Positions 1 through 64,000 of a stretch of DNA of 64,000 nucleotides are shown here, piece by piece. The translations under genes were made by a program, and so were the position numbers. Source of the stretch: Rhynochetos jubatus. Lineage: Eukaryota; Chordata; Aves; Eurypygiformes; Rhynochetidae. Each line of letters begins with the position of its first letter. Positions within the stretch are counted from its first letter, which is position 1. The notes below the pieces were generated by a model. It was not told the DNA's origin. It saw nothing but the letters and a program-made list of their open reading frames with translations, and did not search any database. The stretch covers positions 12,846,404 to 12,910,403 of the forward strand of contig CM050657.1 in assembly GCA_027574665.1 (NCBI GenBank). The letters run 5' to 3'.

Positions 1-147
1 GGCCTTTGCAATGCCAGCTAGCCCTGGAGCTGTGGGCTTTCTGGTTCTCCGGACGCTAACCCTAAGCGTAACCCTAATTGTTCGGGTGCGCGGTTTCCGG
101 CCCGGGCCCCTCTGGGTTCTGGCTAGGAAAGGTGGGGAGGCAGCAAT
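1..147 (+). repeat. Partial monomer at left edge
   Basis: The window opens inside a monomer, at GGCCTTTGCAATGCC. It is a class A copy with the TTCGGG variant (one base off the full hairpin) and a CCCGGGCCCC stretch. Nothing here marks an array end, so the satellite continues to the left. Confidence 0.95.
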
Positions 148-230
148 GTGGGTGCAGTGTTTTGCTCCTCTTGCCAGGCCTTTGCAATGCCAGCTAGCCC
201 TGGAGCTGTGGGCTTTCTGGTTCTCCGGAC

Positions 231-253
231 GCTAACCCTAAGCGTAACCCTAA
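231..253 (-). promoter_or_regulatory. Telomere-like segment with predicted TRF/POT1 motifs (representative)
   Basis: The + strand reads CTAACCCTAAG, a CGT spacer, then AACCCTAA. On the minus strand this gives two copies of TTAGGGTTA, matching the double-stranded Myb site YTAGGGTTR of vertebrate TRF1/TRF2. One of them extends to TTAGGGTTAG, the single-strand decamer bound by POT1. The pair recurs in nearly every monomer, about 12 bp apart, so the window holds on the order of 700 predicted sites. The motif match is seen; binding is inferred. Confidence 0.6.
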
Positions 254-263
254 TTGTTAGGGT
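247..263. repeat. Class A hairpin: ACCCTAA / TTAGGGT inverted repeat (representative)
   Basis: Positions 247-253 read ACCCTAA, 254-256 are the loop TTG, and 257-263 read TTAGGGT, the exact reverse complement. This places two telomere motifs in opposite orientation three bases apart. The same 17 bp recurs in roughly half of the monomers. Variants weaken the stem: TTCGGG (for example 5886-5895) and TGCTAGGG (for example 3598-3606) each lose one pair. Confidence 0.85.
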
Positions 264-603
264 GCGCGGCTTCCAGCCCCAGCCCCCCTGGGTTCTGGCT
301 AGGGAAGGTGGGGAGGCAGCAATGTGGGTGCAGTGTTTTGCTCCTCTTGGCAGGCCTTTGCAATGCCAGCTAGCCCTGGAGCTGTGGGCTTTCTGGTTCT
401 CCGGACGCTAACCCTAAGCGTAACCCTAATTGTTAGGGTGCGCGGTTTCCGTCCCCGGCCCCTGTGGGTTCTGACTAGGGAAGGTGGGGAGGCAGCAATG
501 TGGGTGCAGTGTTTTGCTGCTCTTGGCAGGCCTTTGCAATGCCAGCTAGTCCTGGAGCTGTGGGCTTTCTGGTTCTCCGGACGCTAACCCTAAGCGTAAC
601 CCT

Positions 604-621
604 AATATTTGACGTGCGCGG
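604..621. promoter_or_regulatory. Class B block with TGACGTGC box (representative)
   Basis: In class B monomers the block after the second CCCTAA reads ATATTTGACGTGCGCGG, differing from class A at five linked positions. It removes the inverted telomere motif and creates TGACGTGC, close to a bZIP/CRE-type site and containing the ACGTG core. Minor forms read TTAACGTG (for example 960-967) or TTCACGTG. A regulatory role is only suggested by motif similarity. The same block could be neutral sequence fixed by amplification. Confidence 0.45.
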
Positions 622-1180
622 TTTCCGGCCCTGGCCCCTCTGGGTTCTGGCTAGGGAAGGTGGGGAGGCAGCAATGTGGGTGCAGTGTTTTGCTCCTCTT
701 GGCAGGCCTTTGCAATGCCAGCTAGCCCTGGAGCTGTGGTCTTTCTGGTTCTCCTGACGCTAACCCTAGGCGTAACCCTAATATTTGACGTACGCGGTTT
801 CCGGCCCCGGCCCCCCTGGGTTCTGGCTAGGGCAGGTGGGGAGGCAGCAATGTGGGTGCAGTGTTTTGTTCCTCTTGGCAGGCCTTTGCAATGCCAGCTA
901 GCCCTGGAGCTGTGGGCTTTCTGGTTCTCCGGACGCTAACCCTAAGCGTAACCCTAATATTTAACGTGTGCGGTTTCCGTCCCTGGCCCCTGTGGGTTCT
1001 GGCTAGGGAAGGTGGGGAGGCAGCAATGTGGGTGCAGTGTTTTGCTGCTCTTGGCAGGCCTTTGCAATGCCAGCTAGCCCTGGAGCTGTGGGCTTTCTGG
1101 TTCTCCGGACGCTAACCCTAGGCGTAACCCTAATATTTGACGTGCGCGGTTTCCGGCCCCAGCCCCCCTGGGTTCTGGCT

Positions 1181-1186
1181 AATAAA
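1181..1186 (+). promoter_or_regulatory. AATAAA hexamer (representative of a monomer subset)
   Basis: A subset of monomers reads GGCTAATAAAGGTGGGG where others read GGCTAGGGAAGG. AATAAA is followed within about 35 bases by a GT-rich stretch, ATGTGGGTGCAGTGTTTT, the usual layout of a mammalian poly(A) signal plus downstream element. It would matter only if the array is transcribed on the + strand, the CCCUAA-containing sense. Use as a signal is not shown. Confidence 0.35.
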
Positions 1187-4100
1187 GGTGGGGAGGCAGC
1201 AATGTGGGTGCAGTGTTTTGCTCCTCTTGGCAGGCCTTTGCAATGCCAGCTAGCCCTGGAGCTGTGGGCTTTCTGGTTCTCCAGACGCTAACCCTAAGCG
1301 TAACCCTAATTGTTAGGGTGCGCGGTTTCCGTCCCCGGCCCCTGTGGGTTCTGGCTAGGGAAGGTGGGGAGGCAGCAATGTGGGTGCAGTGTTTTGCTCC
1401 TCTTGGCAGGCCTTTGCAATGCCAGCTAGCCCTGGAGCTGTGGGCTTTCTGGTTCTCCGGACGCTAACCCTAAGCGTAACCCTAATTGTTAGGGTGCGCG
1501 GTTTCCGGCCCCGGCCCCTCTGGGTTCTGGCTAGGGAAGGTGGGGAGGCAGCAATGTGGGTGCAGTGTTTTGCTGCTCTTGGCAGGCCTTTGCAATGCCA
1601 GCTAGCCCTGGAGCTGTGGGCTTTCTGGTTCTCCGGACGCTAACCCTAAGCGTAACCCTAATTGTTAGGGTGCGCGGTTTCCGGCCCAGGCCCCTGTGGG
1701 TTCTGGCTAGGAAAGGTGGGGAGGCAGCAATGTGGGTGCAGTGTTTTGCTGCTCTTGGCAGGCCTTTGCAATGCCAGCTAGCCCTGGAGCTGTGGGCTTT
1801 CTGGTTCTCCGGACGCTAACCCTAAGCGTAACCCTAATATTTGACGTGCGCGGTTTCCGTCCCAGGCCCCTGTGGGTTCTGGCTAGGGAAGGTGGGGAGG
1901 CAGCAATGTGGGTGCAGTGTTTTGCTCCTCTTGGCAGGCCTTTGCAATGCCAGCTAGCCCTGGAGCTGTGGGCTTTCTGGTTCTCCGGACGCTAACCCTA
2001 AGCGTAACCCTAATTGTTAGGGTGCGCGGTTTCCGTCCCCGGCCCCTGTGGGTTCTGACTAGGGAAGGTGGGGAGGCAGCAATGTGGGTGCAGTGTTTTG
2101 CTGCTCTTGGCAGGCCTTTGCAATGCCAGCTAGTCCTGGAGCTGTGGGCTTTCTGGTTCTCCGGACGCTAACCCTAAGCGTAACCCTAATATTTGACGTG
2201 CGCGGTTTCCGGCCCTGGCCCCTCTGGGTTCTGGCTAGGGAAGGTGGGGAGGCAGCAATGTGGGTGCAGTGTTTTGCTCCTCTTGGCAGGCCTTTGCAAT
2301 GCCAGCTAGCCCTGGAGCTGTGGGCTTTCTGGTTCTCCGGACGCTAACCCTAGGCGTAACCCTAATATTTGACGTACGCGGTTTCCGGCCCCGGCCCCCC
2401 TGGGTTCTGGCTAGGGCAGGTGGGGAGGCAGCAATGTGGGTGCAGTGTTTTGTTCCTCTTGGCAGGCCTTTGCAATGCCAGCTAGCCCTGGAGCTGTGGG
2501 CTTTCTGGTTCTCCGGACGCTAACCCTAGGCGTAACCCTAATATTTGACGTGCGCGGTTTCCGGCCCCAGCCCCCCTGGGTTCTGGCTAATAAAGGTGGG
2601 GAGGCAGCAATGTGGGTGCAGTGTTTTGCTCCTCTTGGCAGGCCTTTGCAATGCCAGCTAGCCCTGGAGCTGTGGGCTTTCTGGTTCTCCAGACGCTAAC
2701 CCTAAGCGTAACCCTAATTGTTAGGGTGCGCGGTTTCCGTCCCCGGCCCCTGTGGGTTCTGGCTAGGGAAGGTGGGGAGGCAGCAATGTGGGTGCAGTGT
2801 TTTGCTCCTCTTGGCAGGCCTTTGCAATGCCAGCTAGCCCTGGAGCTGTGGGCTTTCTGGTTCTCCGGACGCTAACCCTAAGCGTAACCCTAATTGTTAG
2901 GGTGCGCGGTTTCCGGCCCCGGCCCCTCTGGGTTCTGGCTAGGGAAGGTGGGGAGGCAGCAATGTGGGTGCAGTGTTTTGCTGCTCTTGGCAGGCCTTTG
3001 CAATGCCAGCTAGCCCTGGAGCTGTGGGCTTTCTGGTTCTCCGGACGCTAACCCTAGGCGTAACCCTAATATTTGACGTGCGCGGTTTCCGGCCCCGGCC
3101 CCTCTGGGTTCTGGCTAGGGCAGGTGGGGAGGCAGCAATGTGGGTGCAGTGTTTTGCTGCTCTTGGCAGGCCTTTGCAATGCCAGCTAGCCCTGGAGCTG
3201 TGGGCTTTCTGGTTCTCCGGACGCTAACCCTAAGCGTAACCCTAATTGTTAGGGTGCGCGGTTTCCGGCCCAGGCCCCTGTGGGTTCTGGCTAGGAAAGG
3301 TGGGGAGGCAGCAATGTGGGTGCAGTGTTTTGCTGCTCTTGGCAGGCCTTTGCAATGCCAGCTAGCCCTGGAGCTGTGGGCTTTCTGGTTCTCCGGACGC
3401 TAACCCTAAGCGTAACCCTAATATTTGACGTGCGCGGTTTCCGGCCCCGGCCCCTCTGGGTTCTGGCTAGGAAAGGTGGGGAGGCAGCAATGTGGGTGCA
3501 GTGTTTTGCTGCTCTTGGCAGGCCTTTGCAATGCCAGCTAGCCCTGGAGCTGTGGGCTTTCTGGTTCTCCGGACGCTAACCCTAAGCGTAACCCTAATTG
3601 CTAGGGTGCGCGTTTTCCGGCCCTGGCCCCTCTGGGTTCTGGCTAGGGAAGGTGGGGAGGCAGCAATGTGGGTGCAGTGTTTTGCTCCTCTTGGCAGGCC
3701 TTTGCAATGCCAGCTAGCCCTGGAGCTGTGGGCTTTCTGGTTCTCCGGACGCTAACCCTAAGCGTAACCCTAATATTTGACGTGCGCGGTTTCCGGCCCC
3801 GGCCCCTGTGGGTTCTGGCTATGGAAGGTGGGGAGGCAGCAATGTGGGTGCAGTGTTTTGCTCCTCTTGGCAGGCTTTTGCAATGCCAGCTAGCCCTGGA
3901 GCTGTGGGCTTTCTGGTTCTCCGGACGCTAACCCTAAGCGTAACCCTAATTGTTAGGGTGCGCGGTGTCCGGCCCCGGCCCCTGTGGGTTCTGGCTAGGG
4001 AAGGTGGGGAGGCAGCAATGTGGGTGCAGTGTTTTGCTCCTCTTGGCAGGCCTTTGCAATGCCAGCTAGCCCTGGAGCTGTGGGCTTTCTGGTTCTCCGG

Positions 4101-16299: not shown

Positions 16300-19200
16300 C
16301 TAGAAAAGGTGGGGAGGCAGCAATGTGGGTGCAGTGTTTTGCTGCTCTTGGCAGGCCTTTGCAATGCCAGCTAGCCCTGGAGCTGTGGGCTTTCTGGTTC
16401 TCCGGACGCTAACCCTAAGCGTAACCCTAATTGTTAGGGTGCGCGGTTTCCGTCCCCGGCCCCCCTGGGTTCTGGCTAGGGAAGGTGGGGAGGCAGCAAT
16501 GTGGGTGCAGTGTTTTGCTCCTCTTGGCAGGCCTTTGCAATGCCAGCTAGCCCTGGAGCTGTGGGCTTTCTGGTTCTCCGGACGCTAACCCTAAGTGTAA
16601 CCCTAATATTTAACGTGCGCGGTTTGCGTCCCTGGCCCCTGTGGGTTCTGGCTAATAAAGGTGGGGAGGGAGCAATGTGGGTGCAGTGTTTTGCTCCTCT
16701 TGGCAGGCCTTTGCAATGCCAGCTAGTCCTGGAGCTGTGGGCTTTCTGGTTCTCCGGACGCTAACCCTAGGCGTAACCCTAATATTTGACGTGCGCGGTT
16801 TCCGGCCCCAGCCCCCCTGGGTTCTGGCTAATAAAGGTGGGGAGGCAGCAATGTGGGTGCAGTGTTTTGCTCCTCTTGGCAGGCCTTTGCAATGCCAGCT
16901 AGCCCTGGAGCTGTGGGCTTTCTGGTTCTCCGGACGCTAACCCTAGGCGTAACCCTAATATTTGACGTGCGCGGTTTCCGGCCCCGGCCCCTGTGGGTTC
17001 TGGCTAGGGCAGGTGGGGAGGCAGCAATGTGGGTGCAGTGTTTTGCTCCTCTTGGCAGGCCTTTGCAATGCCAGCTAGCCCTGGAGCTGTGGGCTTTCTG
17101 GTTCTCCGGACGCTAACCCTAGGCGTAACCCTAATATTTGACGTGCGCGGTTTCCGGCCCCGGCCCCTCTGGGTTCTGGCTAATAAAGGTGGGGAGGCAG
17201 CAATGTGGGTGCAGTGTTTTGCTCCTCTTGGCAGGCCTTTGCAATGCCAGCTAGCCCTGGAGCTGTGGGCTTTCTGGTTCTCCGGACGCTAACCCTAAGC
17301 GTAACCCTAATTGTTAGGGTGCGCGGTTTCCAGCCCCAGCCCCTCTGGGTTCTGGCTAATAAAGCTGGGGAGGCAGCAATGTGGGTGCAGTGTTTTGCTG
17401 CTCTTGGCAGGCCTTTGCAATGCCAGCTAGCCCTGGAGCTGTGGGCTTTCTGGTTCTCCGGACGCTAACCCTAAGCGTAACCCTAATATTTAACGTGCGC
17501 GGTTTGCGTCCCCGGCCCCTGTGGGTTCTGGTTAATAAAGGTGGGGAGGGAGCAATGTGGGTGCAGTGTTTTGCTGCTCTTGGCAGGCCTTTGCAATGCC
17601 AGCTAGCCCTGGAGCTGTGGGCTTTCTGGTTCTCCGGACGCTAACCCTAAGCGTAACCCTAATATTTGACGTGCGCGGTTTCCGGCTCGGGCCCCTCTGG
17701 GTTCTGGCTAGGAAAGGTGGGGAGGCAGCAATGTGGGTGCAGTGTTTTGCTCCTCTTGGCAGGCCTTTGCAATGCCAGCTAGCCCTGGAGCTGTGGGCTT
17801 TCTGGTTCTCCGGACGCTAACCCTACGCGTAACCCTAATATTTGACGTGCGCGGTTTCCGGCCCCGGCCCCTGTGGGTTCTGGCTAGGGCAGGTGGGGAG
17901 GCAGCAATGTGGGTGCAGTGTTTTGCTCCTCTTGGCAGGCCTTTGCAATGCCAGCTAGCCCTGGAGCTGTGGGCTTTCTGGTTCTCCAGACGCTAACCCT
18001 AAGCGTAACCCTAATTGTTAGGGTGCGCGGTTTCCGTCCCCGGCCCCCCTGGGTTCTGGCTAGGGAAGGTGGGGAGGCAGCAATGTGGGTGCAGTGTTTT
18101 GCTGCTCTTGGCAGGCCTTTGCAATGCCAGCTAGCCCTGGAGCTGTGGGCTTTCTGGTTCTCCGGACGCTAACCCTAGGCGTAACCCTAATATTTGACGT
18201 GCGCGGTTTCCGGCCCCGGCCCCTGTGGGTTCTGGCTAGGGAAGGTGGGGAGGCAGCAATGTGGGTGCAGTGTTTTGCTCCTCTTGGCAGGCCTTTGCAA
18301 TGCCAGCTAGCCCTGGAGCTGTGGGCTTTCTGGTTCTCCTGACGCTAACCCTAAGCGTAACCCTAATATTTGACGTGCGCGGTTTCCGGCCCCGGCCCCT
18401 GTGGGTTCTGGCTAGGGCAGGTGGGGAGGCAGCAATGTGGGTGCAGTGTTTTGCTCCTCTTGGCAGGCCTTTGCAATGCCAGCTAGCCCTGGAGCTGTGG
18501 GCGTTCTGGTTCTCCGGACGCTAACCCTAAGCGTAACCCTAATTGTTAGGGTGCGTGGTTTCCGGCCCCGGCCCGTCTGGGTTCTGGCTAGGAAAGGTGG
18601 GGAGGCAGCAATGTGGGTGCAGTGTTTTGCTCCTCTTGGCAGGCCTTTGCAATGCCAGCTAGCCCTGGAGCTGTGGGCTTTCTGGTTCTCCGGATGCTAA
18701 CCCTAACCCTAACCCTAATATTTGACGTGCGCGGTTTCCGGCCCCGGCCCCTGTGGGTTCTGGCTAATAAAGGTGGGGAGGCAGCAATGTGGGTGCAGTG
18801 TTTTGCTCCTCTTGGCAGGCCTTTGCAATGCCAGCTAGCCCTGGAGCTGTGGGCTTTCTGGTTCTCCGGACGCTAACCCTAAGCGTAACCCTAATTGTTA
18901 GGGTGCGCGGTTTCCAGCCCCAGCCCCCCTGGGTTCTGGCTAGGAAAGGTGGGGAGGCAGCAATGTGGGTGCAGTGTTTTGCTCCTCTTGGCAGGCCTTT
19001 GCAATGCCAGCTAGCCCTGGAGCTGTGGGCTTTCTGGTTCTCCGGACGCTAACCCTAACCCTAACCCTAATATTTGACGTGCGCGGTTTCCGGCCCTGGC
19101 CCCTCTGGGTTCTGGCTAATAAAGGTGGGGAGGCAGCAATGTGGGTGCAGTGTTTTGCTCCTCTTGGCAGGCCTTTGCAATGCCAGCTAGCCCTGGAGCT

Positions 19201-22200
19201 GTGGGCTTTCTGGTTCTCCGGACGCTAACCCTAAGTGTAACCCTAATATTTAACGTGCGCGGTTTGCGTCCCTGGCCCCTGTGGGTTCTGGCTAATAAAG
19301 GTGGGGAGGGAGCAATGTGGGTGCAGTGTTTTGCTGCTCTTGGCAGGCCTTTGCAATGCCAGCTAGTCCTGGAGCTGTGGGCTTTCTGGTTCTCCGGACG
19401 CTAACCCTAAGCGTAACCCTAATATTTGACGTGCGCGGTTTCCGGCCCCGGCCCCTGTGGGTTCTGGCTAGGGAAGGTGGGGAGGCAGCAATGTGGGTGC
19501 AGTGTTTTGCTCCTCTTGGCAGGCCTTTGCAATGCCAGCTAGCCCTGGAGCTGTGGGCTTTCTGGTTCTCCGGACGCTAACCCTAGGCGTAACCCTAATA
19601 TTTGACGTGCGCGGTTTCCGGCCCCGGCCCCTGTGGGTTCTGGCTAGGAAAGGTGGGGAGGCAGCAATGTGGGTGCAGTGTTTTGCTGCTCTTGGCAGGC
19701 CTTTGCAATGCCAGCTAGCCCTGGAGCTGTGGGCGTTCTGGTTCTCCGGACGCAAACCCTAAGCCTAACCCTAATTGTTAGGGTGCGCGTTTTCCGGCCC
19801 CGGCCCCTGTGGGTTCTGGCTAGGGAAGGTGGGGAGGCAGCAATGTGGGTGCAGTGTTTTGCTCCTCTTGGCAGGCCTTTGCAATGCCAGCTAGCCCTGG
19901 AGCTGTGGGCTTTCTGGTTCTCCGGACGCTAACCCTAAGCGTAACCCTAATATTTAACGTGCGCGGTTTCCGTCCCCGGCCCCTGTGGGTTCTGGCTAGG
20001 GAAGGTGGGGAGGCAGCAATGTGGGTGCAGTGTTTTGCTCCTCTTGGCAGGCCTTTGCAATGCCAGCTAGCCCTGGAGCTGTGGGCTTTCTGGTTCTCCG
20101 GACGCTAACCCTAAGCGTAACCCTAATTGTTAGGGTGCGCGGTTTCCGTCCCCGGCCCCTGTGGGTTCTGGCTAGGAAAGGTGGGGAGGCAGCAATGTGG
20201 GTGCAGTGTTTTGCTCCTCTTGGCAGGCCTTTGCAATGCCAGCTAGCCCTGGAGCTGTGGGCTTTCTGGTTCTCCGGACGCTAACCCTAAGCGTAACCCT
20301 AATATTTGACGTGCGCGGTTTCCGGCCCCGGCCCCTGTGGGTTCTGGCTAATAAAGGTGGGGAGGCAGCAATGTGGGTGCAGTGTTTTGCTCCTCTTGGC
20401 AGGCCTTTGCAATGCCAGCTAGCCCTGGAGCTGTGGGCTTTCTGGTTCTCCGGACGCTAACCCTAAGCGTAACCCTAATTGTTAGGGTGCGCGGTTTCCG
20501 TCCACGGCCCCTGTGGGTTCTGGCTAGGGAAGGTGGGGAGGCAGCAATGTGGGTGCAGTGTTTTGCTGCTCTTGGCAGGCCTTTGCAATGCCAGCTAGCC
20601 CTGGAGCTGTGGGCTTTCTGGTTCTCCTGACGCTAACCCTAGGCGTAACCCTAATATTTGACGTGCGCGGTTTCCGGCCCCGGCCCCTGTGGGTTCTGGC
20701 TAGGGCAGGTGGGGAGGCAGCAATGTGGGTGCAGTGTTTTGCTCCTCTTGGCAGGCCTTTGCAATGCCAGCTAGCCCTGGAGCTGTGGGCTTTCTGGTTC
20801 TCCGGACGCTAACCCTAAGCGTAACCCTAATTGTTAGGGTGCGCGGTTTCCAGCCCCAGCCCCCCTGGGTTCTGGCTAGGAAAGGTGGGGAGGCAGCAAT
20901 GTGGGTGCAGTGTTTTGCTCCTCTTGGCAGGCCTTTGCAATGCCAGCTAGCCCTGGAGCTGTGGGCTTTCTGGTTCTCCGGACGCTAACCCTAAGCGTAA
21001 CCCTAATTGTTAGGGTGCGGTTTCCGGCCCCGGCCCCTGTGGGTTCTGGCTAGGGAAGGTGGGGAGGCAGCAATGTGGGTGCAGTGTTTTGCTGCTCTTG
21101 GCAGGCCTTTGCAATGCCAGCTAGCCCTGGAGCTGTGGGCTTTCTGGTTCTCCGGACGCTAACCCTAAGCGTAACCCTAATATTTGACGTGCGCGGTTTC
21201 CGGCCCCGGCCCCTGTGGGTTCTGGCTAATAAAGGTGGGGAGGCAGCAATGTGGGTGCAGTGTTTTGCTCCTCTTGGCAGGCCTTTGCAATGCCAGCTAG
21301 CCCTGGAGCTGTGGGCGTTCTGGTTCTCCGGACGCAAACCCTAAGCGTAACCCTAATTGTTAGGGTGCGCGTTTTCCAGCCCCGGCCCCTGTGGGTTCTG
21401 GCTAGAAAAGGTGGGGAGGCAGCAATGTGGGTGCAGTGTTTTGCTGCTCTTGGCAGGCCTTTGCAATGCCAGCTAGCCCTGGAGCTGTGGGCTTTCTGGT
21501 TCTCCGGACGCTAACCCTAAGCGTAACCCTAATTGTTAGGGTGCGCGGTTTCCGTCCCCGGCCCCCCTGGGTTCTGGCTAGGGAAGGTGGGGAGGCAGCA
21601 ATGTGGGTGCAGTGTTTTGCTCCTCTTGGCAGGCCTTTGCAATGCCAGCTAGCCCTGGAGCTGTGGGCTTTCTGGTTCTCCGGACGCTAACCCTAAGTGT
21701 AACCCTAATATTTAACGTGCGCGGTTTGCGTCCCTGGCCCCTGTGGGTTCTGGCTAATAAAGGTGGGGAGGGAGCAATGTGGGTGCAGTGTTTTGCTCCT
21801 CTTGGCAGGCCTTTGCAATGCCAGCTAGTCCTGGAGCTGTGGGCTTTCTGGTTCTCCGGACGCTAACCCTAGGCGTAACCCTAATATTTGACGTGCGCGG
21901 TTTCCGGCCCCAGCCCCCCTGGGTTCTGGCTAATAAAGGTGGGGAGGCAGCAATGTGGGTGCAGTGTTTTGCTCCTCTTGGCAGGCCTTTGCAATGCCAG
22001 CTAGCCCTGGAGCTGTGGGCTTTCTGGTTCTCCGGACGCTAACCCTAGGCGTAACCCTAATATTTGACGTGCGCGGTTTCCGGCCCCGGCCCCTGTGGGT
22101 TCTGGCTAGGGCAGGTGGGGAGGCAGCAATGTGGGTGCAGTGTTTTGCTCCTCTTGGCAGGCCTTTGCAATGCCAGCTAGCCCTGGAGCTGTGGGCTTTC

Positions 22201-25200
22201 TGGTTCTCCGGACGCTAACCCTAGGCGTAACCCTAATATTTGACGTGCGCGGTTTCCGGCCCTGGCCCCTCTGGGTTCTGGCTAATAAAGGTGGGGAGGC
22301 AGCAATGTGGGTGCAGTGTTTTGCTCCTCTTGGCAGGCCTTTGCAATGCCAGCTAGCCCTGGAGCTGTGGGCTTTCTGGTTCTCCGGACGCTAACCCTAA
22401 GCGTAACCCTAATTGTTAGGGTGCGCGGTTTCCAGCCCCAGCCCCTCTGGGTTCTGGCTAATAAAGCTGGGGAGGCAGCAATGTGGGTGCAGTGTTTTGC
22501 TGCTCTTGGCAGGCCTTTGCAATGCCAGCTAGCCCTGGAGCTGTGGGCTTTCTGGTTCTCCGGACGCTAACCCTAAGCGTAACCCTAATATTTAACGTGC
22601 GCGGTTTGCGTCCCCGGCCCCTGTGGGTTCTGGTTAATAAAGGTGGGGAGGGAGCAATGTGGGTGCAGTGTTTTGCTGCTCTTGGCAGGCCTTTGCAATG
22701 CCAGCTAGCCCTGGAGCTGTGGGCTTTCTGGTTCTCCGGACGCTAACCCTAAGCGTAACCCTAATATTTGACGTGCGCGGTTTCCGGCTCGGGCCCCTCT
22801 GGGTTCTGGCTAGGAAAGGTGGCGAGGCAGCAATGTGGGTGCAGTGTTTTGCTCCTCTTGGCAGGCCTTTGCAATGCCAGCTAGCCCTGGAGCTGTGGGC
22901 TTTCTGGTTCTCCGGACGCTAACCCTACGCGTAACCCTAATATTTGACGTGCGCGGTTTCCGGCCCCGGCCCCTGTGGGTTCTGGCTAGGGCAGGTGGGG
23001 AGGCAGCAATGTGGGTGCAGTGTTTTGCTCCTCTTGGCAGGCCTTTGCAATGCCAGCTAGCCCTGGAGCTGTGGGCTTTCTGGTTCTCCAGACGCTAACC
23101 CTAAGCGTAACCCTAATTGTTAGGGTGCGCGGTTTCCGTCCCCGGCCCCCCTGGGTTCTGGCTAGGGAAGGTGGGGAGGCAGCAATGTGGGTGCAGTGTT
23201 TTGCTGCTCTTGGCAGGCCTTTGCAATGCCAGCTAGCCCTGGAGCTGTGGGCTTTCTGGTTCTCCGGACGCTAACCCTAGGCGTAACCCTAATATTTGAC
23301 GTGCGCGGTTTCCGGCCCCGGCCCCTGTGGGTTCTGGCTAGGGAAGGTGGGGAGGCAGCAATGTGGGTGCAGTGTTTTGCTCCTCTTGGCAGGCCTTTGC
23401 AATGCCAGCTAGCCCTGGAGCTGTGGGCTTTCTGGTTCTCCTGACGCTAACCCTAAGCGTAACCCTAATATTTGACGTGCGCGGTTTCCGGCCCCGGCCC
23501 CTGTGGGTTCTGGCTAGGGCAGGTGGGGAGGCAGCAATGTGGGTGCAGTGTTTTGCTCCTCTTGGCAGGCCTTTGCAATGCCAGCTAGCCCTGGAGCTGT
23601 GGGCGTTCTGGTTCTCCGGACGCTAACCCTAAGCGTAACCCTAATTGTTAGGGTGCGTGGTTTCCGGCCCCGGCCCGTCTGGGTTCTGGCTAGGAAAGGT
23701 GGGGAGGCAGCAATGTGGGTGCAGTGTTTTGCTCCTCTTGGCAGGCCTTTGCAATGCCAGCTAGCCCTGGAGCTGTGGGCTTTCTGGTTCTCCGGATGCT
23801 AACCCTAACCCTAACCCTAATATTTGACGTGCGCGGTTTCCGGCCCCGGCCCCTGTGGGTTCTGGCTAATAAAGGTGGGGAGGCAGCAATGTGGGTGCAG
23901 TGTTTTGCTCCTCTTGGCAGGCCTTTGCAATGCCAGCTAGCCCTGGAGCTGTGGGCTTTCTGGTTCTCCGGACGCTAACCCTAAGCGTAACCCTAATTGT
24001 TAGGGTGCGCGGTTTCCAGCCCCAGCCCCCCTGGGTTCTGGCTAGGAAAGGTGGGGAGGCAGCAATGTGGGTGCAGTGTTTTGCTCCTCTTGGCAGGCCT
24101 TTGCAATGCCAGCTAGCCCTGGAGCTGTGGGCTTTCTGGTTCTCCGGACGCTAACCCTAACCCTAACCCTAATATTTGACGTGCGCGGTTTCCGGCCCTG
24201 GCCCCTCTGGGTTCTGGCTAATAAAGGTGGGGAGGCAGCAATGTGGGTGCAGTGTTTTGCTCCTCTTGGCAGGCCTTTGCAATGCCAGCTAGCCCTGGAG
24301 CTGTGGGCTTTCTGGTTCTCCGGACGCTAACCCTAAGTGTAACCCTAATATTTAACGTGCGCGGTTTGCGTCCCTGGCCCCTGTGGGTTCTGGCTAATAA
24401 AGGTGGGGAGGGAGCAATGTGGGTGCAGTGTTTTGCTGCTCTTGGCAGGCCTTTGCAATGCCAGCTAGTCCTGGAGCTGTGGGCTTTCTGGTTCTCCGGA
24501 CGCTAACCCTAAGCGTAACCCTAATATTTGACGTGCGCGGTTTCCGGCCCCGGCCCCTGTGGGTTCTGGCTAGGGAAGGTGGGGAGGCAGCAATGTGGGT
24601 GCAGTGTTTTGCTCCTCTTGGCAGGCCTTTGCAATGCCAGCTAGCCCTGGAGCTGTGGGCTTTCTGGTTCTCCGGACGCTAACCCTAGGCGTAACCCTAA
24701 TATTTGACGTGCGCGGTTTCCGGCCCCGGCCCCTGTGGGTTCTGGCTAGGAAAGGTGGGGAGGCAGCAATGTGGGTGCAGTGTTTTGCTGCTCTTGGCAG
24801 GCCTTTGCAATGCCAGCTAGCCCTGGAGCTGTGGGCGTTCTGGTTCTCCGGACGCAAACCCTAAGCCTAACCCTAATTGTTAGGGTGCGCGTTTTCCGGC
24901 CCCGGCCCCTGTGGGTTCTGGCTAGGGAAGGTGGGGAGGCAGCAATGTGGGTGCAGTGTTTTGCTCCTCTTGGCAGGCCTTTGCAATGCCAGCTAGCCCT
25001 GGAGCTGTGGGCTTTCTGGTTCTCCGGACGCTAACCCTAAGCGTAACCCTAATATTTAACGTGCGCGGTTTCCGTCCCCGGCCCCTGTGGGTTCTGGCTA
25101 GGGAAGGTGGGGAGGCAGCAATGTGGGTGCAGTGTTTTGCTCCTCTTGGCAGGCCTTTGCAATGCCAGCTAGCCCTGGAGCTGTGGGCTTTCTGGTTCTC

Positions 25201-26330
25201 CGGACGCTAACCCTAAGCGTAACCCTAATTGTTAGGGTGCGCGGTTTCCGTCCCCGGCCCCTGTGGGTTCTGGCTAGGAAAGGTGGGGAGGCAGCAATGT
25301 GGGTGCAGTGTTTTGCTCCTCTTGGCAGGCCTTTGCAATGCCAGCTAGCCCTGGAGCTGTGGGCTTTCTGGTTCTCCGGACGCTAACCCTAAGCGTAACC
25401 CTAATATTTGACGTGCGCGGTTTCCGGCCCCGGCCCCTGTGGGTTCTGGCTAATAAAGGTGGGGAGGCAGCAATGTGGGTGCAGTGTTTTGCTCCTCTTG
25501 GCAGGCCTTTGCAATGCCAGCTAGCCCTGGAGCTGTGGGCTTTCTGGTTCTCCGGACGCTAACCCTAAGCGTAACCCTAATTGTTAGGGTGCGCGGTTTC
25601 CGTCCACGGCCCCTGTGGGTTCTGGCTAGGGAAGGTGGGGAGGCAGCAATGTGGGTGCAGTGTTTTGCTGCTCTTGGCAGGCCTTTGCAATGCCAGCTAG
25701 CCCTGGAGCTGTGGGCTTTCTGGTTCTCCTGACGCTAACCCTAGGCGTAACCCTAATATTTGACGTGCGCGGTTTCCGGCCCCGGCCCCTGTGGGTTCTG
25801 GCTAGGGCAGGTGGGGAGGCAGCAATGTGGGTGCAGTGTTTTGCTCCTCTTGGCAGGCCTTTGCAATGCCAGCTAGCCCTGGAGCTGTGGGCTTTCTGGT
25901 TCTCCGGACGCTAACCCTAAGCGTAACCCTAATTGTTAGGGTGCGCGGTTTCCAGCCCCAGCCCCCCTGGGTTCTGGCTAGGAAAGGTGGGGAGGCAGCA
26001 ATGTGGGTGCAGTGTTTTGCTCCTCTTGGCAGGCCTTTGCAATGCCAGCTAGCCCTGGAGCTGTGGGCTTTCTGGTTCTCCGGACGCTAACCCTAAGCGT
26101 AACCCTAATTGTTAGGGTGCGGTTTCCGGCCCCGGCCCCTGTGGGTTCTGGCTAATAAAGGTGGGGAGGCAGCAATGTGGGTGCAGTGTTTTGCTCCTCT
26201 TGGCAGGCCTTTGCAATGCCAGCTAGCCCTGGAGCTGTGGGCGTTCTGGTTCTCCGGACGCAAACCCTAAGCGTAACCCTAATTGTTAGGGTGCGCGTTT
26301 TCCAGCCCCGGCCCCTGTGGGTTCTGGCTA
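16300..26330 (+). repeat. 29-monomer tandem duplication (offset 5,102 bp)
   Basis: Copy 1 runs from ~16,300 to 21,401 and copy 2 from ~21,402 to ~26,330. The rare mark CTAGAAAAGG stands at the left edge of both (16,301 and 21,403). Monomer order is the same for 27 units, including GCGGTTTGCG monomers, CTACGCGTAACC, GGATGCTAACC and GACGCAAACCC. I noticed only a few base differences, for example 17,144-17,150 versus 22,256 (CCCCGG/CCCTGG) and 22,823 (GGTGGCGAGG). Copy 2 lacks one monomer, equivalent to 21,075-21,250. Confidence 0.92.
20901..21074 (+). repeat. 174-bp monomer, first of four related copies
   Basis: GTGCGCGGTTTCC is shortened to GTGCGGTTTCC, a two-base loss. The same loss occurs in monomers at 26,003, 27,409 and 30,927. 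In three of the four the preceding monomer has CAGCCCCAGCCCCC. The shared deletion and context point to one ancestral event copied by segmental amplification. Confidence 0.85.
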
Positions 26331-44300: not shown

Positions 44301-47300
44301 GTGGGTGCAGTGTTTTGCTCCTCTTGGCAGGCCTTTGCAATGCCAGCTAGCCCTGGAGCTCTGGGCTTTCTGGTTCTCCGGACGCTAACCCTAAGCGTAA
44401 CCCTAATTGTTCGGGTGCGCGTTTTCCGGCCCCGGCCCCTGTGGGTTCTGGCTAGGGAAGGTGGGGAGGCAGCAATGTGGGTGCAGTGTTTTGCTCCTCT
44501 TGGCAGGCCTTTGCAATGCCAGCTAGCCCTGGAGCTGTGGGCTTTCTGGTTCTCCGGACGCTAACCCTAAGCGTAACCCTAATATTTGACGTGCGCGGTT
44601 TCCGGCCCCGGCCCCTCTGGGTTCTGGCTAATAAAGCTGGGGAGGCAGCAATGTGGGTGCAGTGTTTTGCTCCTCTTGGCAGGCCTTTGCAATGCCAGCT
44701 AGCCCTGGAGCTGTGGGCTTTCTGGTTCTCCGGACGCTAACCCTAAGCGTAACCCTAATATTTGACTTGCGCGGTTTCCGGCCCCGGCCCCTCTGGGTTC
44801 TGGCTAATAAAGCTGGGGAGGCAGCAATGTGGGTGCAGTGTTTTGCTCCTCTTGGCAGGCCTTTGCAATGCCAGCTAGCCCTGGAGCTGTGGGCTTTCTG
44901 GTTCTCCGGACGCTAACCCTAAGCGTAACCCTAATTGTTAGGGTGCGCGTTTTCCGGCCCCGGCCCCTGTGGGTTCTGGTTAGGGAAGGTGGGGAGGCAG
45001 CAATGTGGGTGCTGTGTTTTGCTCCTCTTGGCAGGCCTTTGCAATGCCAGCTAGCCCTGGAGCTGTGGGCTTTCTGGTTCTCCGGACGCTAACCCTAAGC
45101 GTAACCCTAATTGTTAGGGTGCGCGGTGTCCGGCCCCGGCCCCTCTGTGTTCTGGCTAGGGAAGGTGGGGAGGCAGCAATGTGGGTGCAGTGTTTTGCTC
45201 CTCTTGGCAGGCCTTTGCAATGCCAGCTAGCCCTGGAGCTGTGGGCTTTCTGGTTCTCCGGACGCTAACCCTAACCCTAACCCTAACCCTAATATTTGAC
45301 GTGCGCGGTTTCCGGCCCCGGCCCCTCTGGGTTCTGGCTAGGAAAGGTGGGGAGGCAGCAATGTGGGTGCAGTGTTTTGCTCCTCTTGGCAGGCCTTTGC
45401 AATGCCAGCTAGCCCTGGAGCTGTGGGCTTTCTGGTTCTCCGGACGCTAACCCTAAGCGTAACCCTAATTGCTAGGGTGCGCGTTTTCCGGCCCTGGCCC
45501 CTGTGGGTTCTGGCTAGGGAAGGTGGGGAGGCAGCAATGTGGGTGCAGTGTTTTGCTCCTCTTGGCAGGCCTTTGCAATGCCAGCTAGCCCTGGAGCTGT
45601 GGGCTTTCTGGTTCTCCGGACGCTAACCCTAAGCGTAACCCTAATATTTGACGTGCGCGGTTTCCGGCCCCGGCCCCTGTGGGTTCTGGCTAATAAAGGT
45701 GGGGAGGCAGCAATGTGGGTGCAGTGTTTTGCTCCTCTTGGCAGGCCTTTGCAATGCCAGCTAGCCCTGGAGCTGTGGGCTTTCTGGTTCTCCGGACGCT
45801 AACCCTAAGCGTAACCCTAATTGTTAGGGTGCGCGTTTTCCGGCCACGTCCCCTGTGGGTTATGGCTAGGGAAGGTGGGGAGGCAGCAATGTGGGTGCAG
45901 TGTTTTGCTCCTCTTGGCAGGCCTTTGCAATGCCAGCTAGCCCTGGAGCTGTGGGCTTTCTGGTTCTCCGGACGCTAACCCTAAGCGTAACCCTAATTGT
46001 TAGGGTGCGCGTTTTCCGGCCCCGGCCCCTGTGGATTCTGGTTAGGGAAGGTGGGGAGGCAGCAATGTGGGTGCTGTGTTTTGCTCCTCTTGGCAGGCCT
46101 TTGCAATGCCAGCTAGCCCTGGAGCTGTGGGCTTTCTGGTTCTCCGGACGCTAACCCTAAGCGTAACCCTAATTGTTAGGGTGCGCGGTGTCCGGCCCCG
46201 GCCCCTGTGGGTTCTGGCTAGGGAAGGTGGGGAGGCAGCAATGTGGGTGCAGTGTTTTGCTCCTCTTGGCAGGCCTTTGCAATGCCAGCTAGCCCTGGAG
46301 CTGTGGGCTTTCTGGTTCTCCGGACGCTAACCCTAAGCGTAACCCTAATATTTGACGTGCGCGGTTTCCGGCCCCGGCCCCTCTGGGTTCTGGCTAGGAA
46401 AGGTGGGGAGGCAGCAATGTGGGTGCAGTGTTTTGCTCCTCTTGGCAGGCCTTTGCAATGCCAGCTAGCCCTGGAGCTCTGGGCTTTCTGGTTCTCCGGA
46501 CGCTAACCCTAAGCGTAACCCTAATTGTTCGGGTGCGCGTTTTCCGGCCCCGGCCCCTGTGGGTTCTGGCTAGGGAAGGTGGGGAGGCAGCAATGTGGGT
46601 GCAGTGTTTTGCTCCTCTTGGCAGGCCTTTGCAATGCCAGCTAGCCCTGGAGCTGTGGGCTTTCTGGTTCTCCGGACGCTAACCCTAAGCGTAACCCTAA
46701 TATTTGACGTGCGCGGTTTCCGGCCCCGGCCCCTCTGGGTTCTGGCTAATAAAGCTGGGGAGGCAGCAATGTGGGTGCAGTGTTTTGCTCCTCTTGGCAG
46801 GCCTTTGCAATGCCAGCTAGCCCTGGAGCTGTGGGCTTTATGGTTCTCCGGACGCTAACCCTAAGCGTAACCCTAATATTTGACTTGCGCGGTTTCCGGC
46901 CCCGGCCCCTCTGGGTTCTGGCTAATAAAGCTGGGGAGGCAGCAATGTGGGTGCAGTGTTTTGCTCCTCTTGGCAGGCCTTTGCAATGCCAGCTAGCCCT
47001 GGAGCTGTGGGCTTTCTGGTTCTCCGGACGCTAACCCTAAGCGTAACCCTAATTGTTAGGGTGCGCGTTTTCCGGCCCCGGCCCCTGTGGGTTCTGGTTA
47101 GGGAAGGTGGGGAGGCAGCAATGTGGGTGCTGTGTTTTGCTCCTCTTGGCAGGCCTTTGCAATGCCAGCTAGCCCTGGAGCTGTGGGCTTTCTGGTTCTC
47201 CGGACGCTAACCCTAAGCGTAACCCTAATTGTTAGGGTGCGCGGTGTCCGGCCCCGGCCCCTCTGTGTTCTGGCTAGGGAAGGTGGGGAGGCAGCAATGT

Positions 47301-51000: not shown

Positions 51001-51099
51001 GCAGTGTTTTGCTCCTCTTGGCAGGCCTTTGCAATGCCAGCTAGCCCTGGAGCTGTGGGCTTTCTGGTTCTCCGGACGCTAACCCTAAGCGTAACCCTA

Positions 51100-58562: not shown

Positions 58563-58738
58563 GTGGGTGCTGTGTTTTGCTCCTCTTGGCAGGCCTTTGC
58601 AATGCCAGCTAGCCCTGGAGCTGTGGGCTTTCTGGTTCTCCGGACGCTAACCCTAAGCGTAACCCTAATTGTTAGGGTGCGCGTTTTGGGGCCCCGGCCC
58701 CTCTGTGTTCTGGCTAGGGAAGGTGGGGAGGCAGCAAT
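58563..58738 (+). repeat. Monomer with GTTTTGGGGCCCC variant
   Basis: At about 58,678-58,700 the CpG-rich stretch reads GCGCGTTTTGGGGCCCCGG, replacing TTCCGG with TTGGGG and creating a GGGGCCCC palindrome. The class A hairpin is intact. No second copy was noticed. Confidence 0.78.
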
Positions 58739-60249
58739 GTGGGTGCAGTGTTTTGCTCCTCTTGGCAGGCCTTTGCAATGCCAGCTAGCCCTGGAGCTGT
58801 GGGCTTTCTGGTTCTCCGGACGCTAACCCTAAGCGTAAACCTAATTGTTAGGGTGCGCGTTTTCCGGCCCCGGCCCCTCTGGGTTCTGGCTAGGGAAGGT
58901 GGGGAGGCAGCAATGTGGGTGCAGTGTTTTGCTCCTCTTGGCAGGCCTTTGCAATGCCAGCTAGCCCTGGAGCTGTGGGCTTTCTGGTTCTCCGGACGCT
59001 AACCCTAAGCGTAACCCTAATTGTTAGGGTGCGCGTTTTCCTTCCCCGGCCCCTGAGGGTTCTGGTTAGGGAAGGTGGGGAGGCAGCAATGTGGGTGCTG
59101 TGTTTTGCTCCTCTTGGCAGGCCTTTGCAATGCCAGCTAGCCCTGGAGCTGTGGGCTTTCTGGTTCTCCGGACGCTAACCCTAAGCGTAACCCTAATTGT
59201 TAGGGTGCGCGGTGTCCGGCCCCGGCCCCTGTGGGTTCTGGATAGGGAAGGTGGGGAGGCAGCAATGTGGGTGCAGTGTTTTGCTCCTCTTGGCAGGCCT
59301 TTGCAATGCCAGCTAGCCCTGGAGCTGTGGGCTTTCTGGTTCTCCGGACGCTAACCCTAACCCTAACCCTAATATTTGACGTGCGCGGTTTCCGGCCCCG
59401 GCCCCTCTGGGTTCTGGCTAATAAAGCTGGGGAGGCAGCAATGTGGGTGCAGTGTTTTGCTCCTCTTGGCAGGCCTTTGCAATGCCAGCTAGCCCTGGAG
59501 CTGTGGGCTTTCTGGTTCTCCGGACGCTAACCCTAAGCGTAACCCTAATATTTGACGTGCGCGGTTTCCGGCCCCGGCCCCTGTGGGTTCTGGCTAGGGA
59601 AGGTGGGGAGGCAGCAATGTGGGTGCAGTGTTTTGCTCCTCTTGGCAGGCCTTTGCAATGCCAGCTAGCCCTGGAGCTCTGGGCTTTCTGGTTCTCCGGA
59701 CGCTAACCCTAAGCGTAACCCTAATTGTTCGGGTGCGCGTTTTCCGGCCCCGGCCCCTGTTTGTTCTGGCTAGGGAAGGTGGGGAGGCAGCAATGTGGGT
59801 GCAGTGTTTTGCTCCTCTTGGCAGGCCTTTGCAATGCCAGCTAGCCCTGGAGCTGTGGGCTTTCTGGTTCTCCGGACGCTAACCCTAAGCGTAACCCTAA
59901 TATTTGACGTGCGCGGTTTCCGGCCCCGGCCCCTCTGGGTTCTGGCTAATAAAGCTGGGGAGGCAGCAATGTGGGTGCAGTGTTTTGCTCCTCTTGGCAG
60001 GCCTTTGCAATGCCAGCTAGCCCTGGAGCTGTGGGCTTTCTGGTTCTCCGGACGCTAACCCTAAGCGTAACCCTAATATTTGACGTGCGCGGTTTCCGGC
60101 CCCGGCCCCTCTGGATTCTGGCTAATAAAGGTGGGGATGCAGCAATGTGGGTGCAGTGTTTTGCTCCTCTTGGCAGGCCTTTGCAATGCCAGCTAGCCCT
60201 GGAGCTGTGGGCTTTCTGGTTCTCCGGACGCTAACCCTAAGCGTAACCC

Positions 60250-62434
60250 TAATATTTGACGTGCGCGGTTTCCGGCCCCGGCCCCTCTGGGTTCTGGCTA
60301 GGAAAGGTGGGGAGGCAGCAATGTGGGTGCAGTGTTTTGCTCCTCTTGGCAGGCCTTTGCAATGCCAGCTAGCCCTGGAGCTGTGGGCTTTCTGGTTCTC
60401 CGGACGCTAACCCTAAGCGTAACCCTAATTGCTAGGGTGCGCGTTTTCCGGCCCTGGCCCCTCTGGGTTCTGGCTAGGGAAGGTGGGGAGGCAGCAATGT
60501 GGGTGCAGTGTTTTGCTCCTCTTGGCAGGCCTTTGCAATGCCAGCTAGCCCTGGAGCTGTGGGCTTTCTGGTTCTCCGGACGCTAACCCTAAGCGTAACC
60601 CTAATATTTGACGTGCGCGGTTTCCGGCCCCGGCCCCTCTGGGTTCTGGCTAATAAAGCTGGGGAGGCAGCAATGTGGGTGCAGTGTTTTGCTCCTCTTG
60701 GCAGGCCTTTGCAATGCCAGCTAGCCCTGGAGCTGTGGGCTTTCTGGTTCTCCGGACGCTAACCCTAAGCGTAACCCTAATTGTTAGGGTGCGCGTTTTC
60801 CGGCCACGTCCCCTGTGGGTTCTGGCTAGGGAAGGTGGGGAGGCAGCAATGTGGGTGCAGTGTTTTGCTCCTCTTGGCAGGCCTTTGCAATGCCAGCTAG
60901 CCCTGGAGCTGTGGGCTTTCTGGTTCTCCGGACGCTAACCCTAAGCGTAACCCTAATTGTTAGGGTGCGCGGTGTCCGGCCCCGGCCCCTCTGTGTTCTG
61001 GCTAGGGAAGGTGGGGAGGCAGCAATGTGGGTGCAGTGTTTTGCTCCTCTTGGCAGGCCTTTGCAATGCCAGCTAGCCCTGGAGCTGTGGGCTTTCTGGT
61101 TCTCCGGACGCTAACCCTAAGCGTAACCCTAATTGTTAGGGTGCGCGGTTTCCGGCCCCGGCCCCTGTGGGTTCTGGCTAGGGAAGGTGGGGAGGCAGCA
61201 ATGTGGGTGCAGTGTTTTGCTCCTCTTGGGAGGCCTTTGCAATGCCAGCTAGCCCTGGAGCTGTGGGCTTTCTGGTTCTCCGGACGCTAACCCTAAGCGT
61301 AACCCTAATATTTGACGTGCGCGGTTTCCGGCCCCGGCCCCTGTGGGTTCTGGCTAGGAAAGGTGGGGAGGCAGCAATGTGGGTGCAGTGTTTTGCTCCT
61401 CTTGGCAGGCCTTTGCAATGCCAGCTAGCCCTGGAGCTGTGGGCTTTCTGGTTCTCCGGACGCTAACCCTAAGCGTAACCCTAATATTTGACGTGCGCGG
61501 TTTCCAGCCCCGGCCCCTCTGGGTTCTGGCTAATAAATGTGGGGAGGCAGCAATGTGGGTGCAGTGTTTTGCTCCTCTTGGCAGGCCTTTGCAATGCCAG
61601 CTAGCCCTGGAGCTGTGGGCTTTCTGGTTCTCCGGACGCTAACCCTAAGCGTAACCCTAATTGTTAGGGTGCGCGGTTTCCGGCCCCGGCCCCTGTGGGT
61701 TCTGGCTATGGAAGGTGGGGAGGCAGCAATGTGGGTGCAGTGTTTTGCTCCTCTTGGCAGGCCTTTGCAATGCCAGCTAGCCCTGGAGCTCTGGGCTTTC
61801 TGGTTCTCCGGACGCTAACCCTAAGCGTAACCCTAATATTTGACGTGCGCGGTTTCCGGCCCCGGCCCCTCTGGGTTCTGGCTAGGAAAGGTGGGGAGGC
61901 AGCAATGTGGGTGCAGTGTTTTGCTCCTCTTGGCAGGCCTTTGCAATGCCAGCTAGCCCTGGAGCTGTGGGCTTTCTGGTTCTCCGGACGCTAACCCTAA
62001 GCGTAACCCTAATTGCTAGGGTGCGCGTTTTCCGGCCCTGGCCCCTCTGGGTTCTGGCTAGGGAAGGTGGGGAGGCAGCAATGTGGGTGCAGTGTTTTGC
62101 TCCTCTTGGCAGGCCTTTGCAATGCCAGCTAGCCCTGGAGCTGTGGGCTTTCTGGTTCTCCGGACGCTAACCCTAAGCGTAACCCTAATATTTGACGTGC
62201 GCGGTTTCCGGCCCCGGCCCCTCTGGGTTCTGGCTAATAAAGCTGGGGAGGCAGCAATGTGGGTGCAGTGTTTTGCTCCTCTTGGCAGGCCTTTGCAATG
62301 CCAGCTAGCCCTGGAGCTGTGGGCTTTCTGGTTCTCCGGACGCTAACCCTAAGCGTAACCCTAATTGTTAGGGTGCGCGTTTTCCGGCCACGTCCCCTGT
62401 GGGTTCTGGCTAGGGAAGGTGGGGAGGCAGCAAT
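60250..62434 (+). repeat. Duplicated ~3.4-monomer segment, 9 monomers apart
   Basis: About 60,250-60,850 recurs at 61,834-62,434 (offset 1,584 bp): GGAAAGG class B, GCTAGGGTGCGCG with CCCTGG, AATAAAGCTG class B, then a GGCCACGTCCCC class A monomer. The segment abuts the 61,203-62,434 seven-monomer unit, so two amplification steps overlap here. Confidence 0.72.
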
Positions 62435-63138
62435 GTGGGTGCAGTGTTTTGCTCCTCTTGGGAGGCCTTTGCAATGCCAGCTAGCCCTGGAGCTGTGGGC
62501 TTTCTGGTTCTCCGGACGCTAACCCTAAGCGTAACCCTAATATTTGACGTGCGCGGTTTCCGGCCCCGGCCCCTGTGGGTTCTGGCTAGGAAAGGTGGGG
62601 AGGCAGCAATGTGGGTGCAGTGTTTTGCTCCTCTTGGCAGGCCTTTGCAATGCCAGCTAGCCCTGGAGCTGTGGGCTTTCTGGTTCTCCGGACGCTAACC
62701 CTAAGCGTAACCCTAATATTTGACGTGCGCGGTTTCCAGCCCCGGCCCCTCTGGGTTCTGGCTAATAAATGTGGGGAGGCAGCAATGTGGGTGCAGTGTT
62801 TTGCTCCTCTTGGCAGGCCTTTGCAATGCCAGCTAGCCCTGGAGCTGTGGGCTTTCTGGTTCTCCGGACGCTAACCCTAAGCGTAACCCTAATTGTTAGG
62901 GTGCGCGGTTTCCGGCCCCGGCCCCTGTGGGTTCTGGCTATGGAAGGTGGGGAGGCAGCAATGTGGGTGCAGTGTTTTGCTCCTCTTGGCAGGCCTTTGC
63001 AATGCCAGCTAGCCCTGGAGCTCTGGGCTTTCTGGTTCTCCGGACGCTAACCCTAAGCGTAACCCTAATTGTTAGGGTGCGCGTTTTCCTTCCCCGGCCC
63101 CTGTGGGTTCTGGTTAGGGAAGGTGGGGAGGCAGCAAT
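61203..63138 (+). repeat. Duplicated 4-monomer segment, 7 monomers apart
   Basis: 61,203-61,906 recurs at 62,435-63,138 (offset 1,232 bp). Both start with CTTGGGAGGCC and GGAAAGG, then AATAAATGTGGGG, GGCTATGGAAGG and GAGCTCTGG. They diverge in the last monomer, which is class B in the first copy and class A with TTTTCCTTCC in the second. Confidence 0.83.
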
Positions 63139-64000
63139 GTGGGTGCAGTGTTTTGCTCCTCTTGGCAGGCCTTTGCAATGCCAGCTAGCCCTGGAGCTGT
63201 GGGCTTTCTGGTTCTCCGGACGCTAACCCTAAGCGTAACCCTAATTGTTAGGGTGCGCGGTGTCCGGCCCCGGCCCCTGTGGGTTCTGGATAGGGAAGGT
63301 GGGGAGGCAGCAATGTGGGTGCAGTGTTTTGCTCCTCTTGGCAGGCCTTTGCAATGCCAGCTAGCCCTGGAGCTGTGGGCTTTCTGGTTCTCCGGACGCT
63401 AACCCTAACCCTAACCCTAATATTTGACGTGCGCGGTTTCCAGCCCCGGCCCCTCTGGGTTCTGGCTAATAAAGCTGGGGAGGCAGCAATGTGGGTGCAG
63501 TGTTTTGCTCCTCTTGGCAGGCCTTTGCAATGCCAGCTAGCCCTGGAGCTGTGGGCTTTCTGGTTCTCCGGACGCTAACCCTAAGCGTAACCCTAATATT
63601 TGACGTGCGCGGTTTCCGGCCCCGGCCCCTGTGTTTTCTGGCTAGGGAAGGTGGGGAGGCAGCAATGTGGGTGCAGTGTTTTGCTCCTCTTGGCAGGCCT
63701 TTGCAATGCCAGCTAGCCCTGGAGCTCTGGGCTTTCTGGTTCTCCGGACGCTAACCCTAAGCGTAACCCTAATTGTTCGGGTGCGCGTTTTCCGGCCCCG
63801 GCCCCTGTGGGTTCTGGCTAGGGAAGGTGGGGAGGCAGCAATGTGGGTGCAGTGTTTTGCTCCTCTTGGCAGGCCTTTGCAATGCCAGCTAGCCCTGGAG
63901 CTGTGGGCTTTCTGGTTCTCCGGACGCTAACCCTAAGCGTAACCCTAATATTTGACGTGCGCGGTTTCCGGCCCCGGCCCCTCTGGGTTCTGGCTAATAA

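Follow-up and report, generated by a model that had tools for sequence, protein, structure and literature searches.

The 64,000-nucleotide stretch of the Rhynochetos jubatus genome analyzed here (the window; contig CM050657.1, C12 in what follows, positions 12,846,404 to 12,910,403) lies in an array of a 176-bp satellite whose unit includes a short telomere tract. We consider it probable (at roughly 0.75) that this is a centromere-type satellite, the ancestral unit of which already contained the telomere tract and was later amplified; its assignment to a centromere or pericentromere derives from the form and the place of the array. Each nucleosome-sized unit is predicted to offer about two TRF motifs. 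The class of repeat is ordinary, but its scale and completeness are unusual, nearly all of the units counted retaining a fossil telomere tract.

Tandem Repeats Finder reported a single array at window positions 1 to 63,996, with a period of 176 bp, 363.7 copies, and 94% matches. By alignment to the cyclic consensus, 364 monomers start within the window, all of them head-to-tail, close to the 362 given in the preliminary description of this DNA. That description also had the unit length right, but the 64-kb extent it assigned to the satellite is only the frame of the window. The array, which fills window positions 1 to 64,000 on the plus strand, extends over C12:12,299,805-14,102,125, and the window samples about 3.6% of these 1,802,321 bp (1.80 Mb, about 10,240 units, a length that is as assembled and in its exact value unproven). 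Most monomers in the window are 176 bp long (354), the others measuring 174 (four), 175 (three), 170 (two), or 182 bp (one). The consensus monomer has a GC content of 59.7% and 8 CpG, and only about 23 of its 176 bp are telomeric, leaving about 150 bp of non-telomeric DNA. In the first monomer (1 to 176, plus strand, in the consensus frame), the tract CTAACCCTAAGCGTAACCCTAAT occupies positions 56 to 78 of the same strand and contains two TAACCCTAA (that is, TTAGGGTTA) motifs.

Every one of the 364 monomers holds CCCTAA on the plus strand, as had been claimed, with one copy in 37, two in 305, and three in 22. Counting both strands, the motif occurs 873 times in the window against 81.65 expected (standard deviation, 9.91), a number reached by none of 100 shuffles. 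The single orientation proposed earlier applies to the monomers and not to the motifs: TTAGGG is also found on the plus strand in 142 of the 355 anchored intervals (a few of which contain two or three monomers), once in 125 and twice in 17, because one variant of the unit, B, holds an inverted telomere motif. These 355 intervals comprise 197 distinct sequence types.

At consensus positions 56 to 78, CTAACCCTAAGCGTAACCCTAAT corresponds to (CTAACC)3.8 with CCC changed to GCG. The motif is thus a fixed part of a longer unit and not a degenerate telomere, which agrees with the preliminary description; that the unit is otherwise unrelated to telomeres is right for the backbone, although relatives of the unit carry the tract uninterrupted. 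For the tract within the C12 array, we used a sample of 1335 monomers, from which 73 of 1408 cyclic units at 80% identity or less, mostly flanking non-satellite DNA and pieces of long terminal repeats (LTR), had first been dropped. The exact CTAACCCTAAGCGTAACCCTAAT tract is present in 1011 of them. Perfect 9-bp TTAGGGTTA motifs number two in 1086 monomers, one in 164, three in 83, and none in 2, and the usual unit has two of them 12 bp apart. The pattern TAACCCTAA, which we take to be the Myb site of TRF1/TRF2, occurs in perfect form at least once in 1333 and at least twice in 1169 of the 1335.

Directly 3' of the tract, there are two main forms, A (ATATTTGACG) and B (ATTGTTAGGG), called in 467 and 640 of the sampled monomers, with 228 others. 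Variant B holds the short inverted repeat ACCCTAA-TTG-TTAGGGT; an example is found in the second monomer (window positions 248 to 262, not assigned to a strand), where CCCTAA is followed by the inverted TTAGGG. Tract length among the 364 window monomers is 21 bp in 360, 15 bp in two, and 27 bp in one, so that tracts 6 bp shorter or longer are present even inside the C12 array. An expanded, uninterrupted tract, (CTAACC)4.7, lies at 45,265 to 45,292 on the plus strand. A version with CCC as the spacer was found in 85 of the 1335 monomers, 75 of them of variant A. It was considered as the ancestral form within the C12 array and rejected, being absent from 266 left-edge monomers. No site resembling a CENP-B box was found in the consensus at up to 2 mismatches.

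The place of the array is the second basis for the centromeric assignment. It lies at 39 to 45% along the 31.63-Mb contig, with 12.3 Mb of sequence to its left and 17.5 Mb to its right. Its extent was established with probes and edge tiles that cover about 13% of its sequence, and strand and unit are the same in all of them; both edges join non-satellite DNA, and no N was found in the array and edge pieces sampled. A second block lies on the minus strand of the 42.58-Mb C8, starting at about 25.872 Mb and ending between 27.8 and 28.3 Mb (about 1.9 to 2.4 Mb). As far as sampled, the blocks on C12 and C8 are both megabase-sized, co-oriented, interior arrays with non-satellite DNA on both sides, as is characteristic of centromeric satellites. 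Another array begins at about 8.764 Mb on C11; 20 probes spaced 1.7 Mb apart all missed it, and it was located later by pattern search. In the whole assembly (1.331 Gb in 148 contigs of 148.6 Mb to about 1 Mb), arrays of the family were found at least on C8, C11, C12, C19, C21, C22, and C23. Relatives of the unit also stand at five contig ends that lack telomere repeats (both ends of C19, the start of C22, and the right ends of C21 and C23), as might result if the assembly broke inside acrocentric centromeres, a reading that would leave the two ends of C19 unexplained.

Three observations weigh against a centromere-type satellite of this origin. Satellite is present on the same strand at both ends of the 20.6-Mb C19, a distribution that one centromere would not account for. 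The contigs C1 to C7 have only small islands of the family among the matches listed, so that the satellite is unlikely to form the centromeres of all chromosomes. Finally, the tract does not stand out by its conservation within the C12 array (P = 0.12): 98 of the 176 possible 20-bp blocks are conserved at least as well.

To follow the family across the genome, exact patterns were counted over the whole assembly, the reversed control of each pattern giving 0 matches. The C12-type tract was found 31,486 times and the C12-type backbone 36,358 times. A backbone marker common to the family occurs in 121,858 copies (81,761 with CCCA and 40,097 with GCCA), and the two-block tract of the family, TTCTCCRGAYSCTAACCCTARNNNTAACCCTA, in 117,501 units. 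At 176 bp each, these tract-bearing units would amount to about 20.7 Mb, or 1.55% of the assembly. The ratio of tract to backbone is 0.96 genome-wide versus 0.95 (1027 to 1079) in the C12 window and edge pieces; since each pattern counts its own units and the two are not equally strict, these ratios compare totals. With tract and backbone totals so close, nothing indicates that a large share of the units keeping the backbone marker lack the motif. The consensuses of the C12A, C19, C11, and C22 types are 78 to 96% identical; most of the C19- and C11-type units sampled carry an uninterrupted CCCTAACCCTAACCCTAACCCTA tract, and the tract of the C22 type is GCTAACCCTAGCCCTAACCCTAA. On C1 to C7, the matches listed (apparently in contig order) form islands of one to five exact copies of the marker, with three matches to the tract and none to the C12-type patterns. 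These islands also contain diverged units beyond the exact copies of the marker.

Twelve such islands on C1 to C8, with 34 complete monomers, were examined as relics of the family, allowing one mismatch per hexamer. At least two hexamers were found in 32 of the 34 monomers, mostly as (CCCTAA)2-4 and at the same position of the unit. The length of the relic monomers rises with the number of hexamers (r = 0.68, P = 8e-6) with a slope of 4.9 bp per hexamer, and the relic consensus holds (CCCTAA)3, being similar in form to the C11/C19 type. Because the relics share this site and their length follows hexamer number, the ancestral monomer most likely carried a short telomeric microsatellite of variable hexamer number that was copied along with the unit. 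The relic consensus tract is uninterrupted despite the absence of the CCC-spacer version at the left edge of the C12 array, and the GCG-interrupted form of the window subfamily would be derived.

An ancestral monomer of this kind would have consisted of about 153 bp of non-telomeric DNA plus a short (CCCTAA)n at one fixed place, a tract captured most likely once, for example during the repair of a break. In the relics the number of hexamers varied, mostly between 2 and 4, and versions of about 176 bp were then amplified on several chromosomes through block duplication and exchange, the CCC of the tract turning into GCG in the window subfamily. Its TTAGGGTTA motifs would be expected to bind TRF1/TRF2 and to make the block a dispersed, low-density platform for telomere proteins. 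Retention of the motif is probably due mainly to homogenization that copies whole units, a selected role being possible as well.

Block duplication can be seen in the array itself. A block of 26 monomers at 16,354 to 20,929 of the window has a second copy, 99.96% identical and displaced by 29 monomers, at 21,456 to 26,031 (both copies on the plus strand). In all, the left, middle, and right C12 pieces contain 42 recurring runs of 5 to 32 monomers, each pair with an identity of 98.5% or more; among the runs listed, most recur at lags of fewer than 90 units. A regular higher-order repeat was considered and rejected; the lag means are nearly flat up to 40 units, with block duplications only. The three pieces differ from each other, the longest run in common being of 3 monomers. 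Mean pairwise identity is 0.934 in the left piece versus 0.950 in both the middle and the right pieces, which suggests greater age at the array edge, at the left edge only. Identity to the consensus is 0.955 at both edges versus 0.963, a comparison that is biased because the consensus was derived from the window.

Close to each end of the C12 array, an insertion resembling a solo LTR interrupts a monomer, in both cases at the same place and with the same 5-bp flanks, GTGGG. The two copies (12,300,062 to 12,300,682, 621 bp, and 14,094,524 to 14,095,156, 633 bp) are 94.8% identical, and their shared site and flanks indicate that one insertion was seemingly copied together with its monomer. The C8 array holds, in the piece sampled at 26,100,000, a related LTR stretch 93% identical to that of C12, its insertion site lying outside the sequence sampled. 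The junctions of the C12 array themselves (12,299,805 and 14,102,125) fall at positions 72 and 85 of the consensus, thus no more than 14 bp apart in the unit and right where the tract ends.

Among the other explanations, the one that survives best is that the telomere tract is selected, either by binding shelterin (TRF1/TRF2) or by aiding CENP-A loading or replication of the array, arrays without the tract having been lost; we regard it as possible, although with a low probability. Across the four subfamily consensuses, all 17 columns of the two motif blocks are invariant compared to 116 of 159 elsewhere (P = 0.0065), a contrast equaled or exceeded in 2 of 176 rotations of the mask, its own position included; an earlier alignment gave P = 0.0043 and 1 of 176 rotations. 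The mask was, however, picked after seeing the data, and the evidence comes from only four consensus sequences, two of which (C11 and C19) are 96% identical. The near equality of the tract and backbone totals would also fit selection, as would the chicken centromere cores, in many of which (TTAGGG)n is embedded in CNM arrays (PMC9974502). On the other side stand the within-array comparison given above and the relics, presumably unconstrained, which show a mild excess of conservation too (0.933 versus 0.871, P = 0.047, with 26 of 158 windows as high). Selection on the motif is possible, with no support from conservation within the array and weak support from conservation between subfamilies. 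A stronger version would make the tract a functional part of a centromere satellite. More than 100,000 nucleosome-sized units, each with about two TRF sites, would recruit shelterin to centromeric chromatin and would form a reservoir of such sites to rival that of the chromosome ends; the sites would persist despite the divergence of the remaining unit from one chromosome to another. We find this doubtful; if true, together with the chicken (TTAGGG)n cores, it would suggest that telomere sequence has been put to use in bird centromeres more than once.

That the satellite is subtelomeric, as the preliminary description had it, with motifs that reflect a place near chromosome ends and an array that is terminal or misassembled, now appears quite unlikely. 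The idea draws on the motifs carried by all units of the window and on the relatives at five contig ends, both ends of C19 included. The window's array does not adjoin terminal telomere repeats and is found in mid-contig, at megabase distances from ends of which the right one is a TTAGGG repeat, and the sampled pieces free of N argue against a misplaced terminal array. We surveyed 59 contig ends (39 starts, of which 8 were fully masked, and 20 right ends) in pieces ranging from 200 bp to 10 kb and found real telomere repeats at 10. Seven of these pieces are too short, consisting of telomere repeat only, and are uninformative about neighbors; at the three that reach the adjoining DNA (10 kb at the right end of C12, 10 kb, partly masked, at the left end of C5, and 1 kb at the left end of C8), no satellite was found beside the telomere.

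An ancient telomere-telomere fusion, or an interstitial telomere block that degenerated into the 176-bp unit, would explain why real telomere motifs occur interstitially and why relatives carry the tract uninterrupted. It would leave a telomere-rich core instead of one tract per 176 bp in units that are otherwise non-telomeric. No head-to-head telomere array was found in the pieces sampled, and the presence of the same monomer as small relics at many places of C1 to C7 is contrary to a fusion, which we judge quite unlikely as well. A degenerate heterochromatic interstitial telomeric sequence (het-ITS) was likewise rejected, as the array is not mainly made of hexamers. Repeat arrays are hard to assemble, and C19, C21, C22, and C23 break inside the family, but collapse or false expansion of repeats deserves almost no credence given the many sequence types, the two edges that join non-satellite DNA, and the differences between left, middle, and right pieces.

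That the class was already known, as stated earlier, is confirmed by precedents in chaffinch and chicken. The chaffinch (Fringilla coelebs) has a centromeric satellite with short TTAGGG clusters in its monomers (Liangouzov et al. 2002; Saifitdinova et al. 2001, by their titles as listed in PMC10887557 and PMC12111239). Like the 176-bp unit, it is, by those titles, a tandem repeat of a bird with the telomere motif inside the monomer, and the chaffinch repeat is centromeric. Its unit is reportedly longer, of about 505 bp, and the likeness is one of description. Chicken centromere cores have (TTAGGG)n embedded in 41-bp CNM arrays on seven chromosomes (PMC9974502). The two cases share telomere sequence within a bird centromere satellite, but, as the chicken arrays are described there, the (TTAGGG)n stretches are separate, whereas here the tract is inside each 176-bp monomer.

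Centromere repeats of about 180 to 190 bp are described in excerpts on other birds, such as VchSat01-179 of Vanellus (PMC10887557) and the 190-bp APL-HaeIII of duck (PMC6435179). Like our unit, they are of near-nucleosome length and have a GC content above 50%, and they are centromeric; their GC content is about 52% versus 59.7% here, and the excerpts, from which the comparison is one of description, mention no telomere motif. An avian centromeric repeat of about 190 bp is also attributed to Madsen et al. 1994 (cited in PMC10887557); its unit reportedly has conserved oligonucleotides at fixed places. Outside birds, telomere motifs as components of satellites or het-ITS are noted for marsupials and suggested for the frog Boana faber (PMC9693754, from the passages available). 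In these passages, as here, the telomere motif is a native satellite component; those cases are known from fluorescence in situ hybridization (FISH), whereas the 176-bp unit is known from sequence. For FA-SAT of cat, reportedly a further precedent, the excerpts of the literature gave no confirmation of telomere motifs, and those on trogon, thrush, and duck gave no match to the unit. No printed copy of it was found in the open-licence literature with six 15- to 17-mer pieces in both strands (twelve in all), and searches of Rfam (window positions 1 to 4000), of IMG/VR and GTDB with an exact pattern, and of plasmids with blastn returned nothing informative.

The family provides a natural, sequenced series in which to trace how telomere sequence slips and becomes fixed within a satellite. 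It begins with decayed relics, most of them with (CCCTAA)2-4, continues with arrays whose tract is uninterrupted, and ends with arrays interrupted by GCG. A TTAGGG signal that FISH shows at a bird centromere is not necessarily the scar of a fusion. With about 23 bp of unbroken telomere repeat each, units of the C11/C19 type should label with a telomere probe, and those of the C12/C8 type weakly. The species is also a good case for asking whether TRF1/TRF2 occupy a centromere-type satellite.

Other repeats were noted during the survey. Variant hexamers are present at some of the telomere ends, TTCGGG at the right ends of C12 and C25 and TGAGGG at the right end of C18. A stretch in one sampled genome piece is, by eye, presumably CR1-like. 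Another GC-rich short tandem repeat, similar to GGGGCGAGGGGGCGGGGCTTAA, is found at the starts of C20 and C24 and the end of C29, and an apparent shared repeat, recognized by eye from the parts AGGCATGCAGTGCTCTGCC and TTTGGAGGAAAAGGGAGAGG with variants, stands at ends of C9, C10, C16, C20, C23, C27, and C29.

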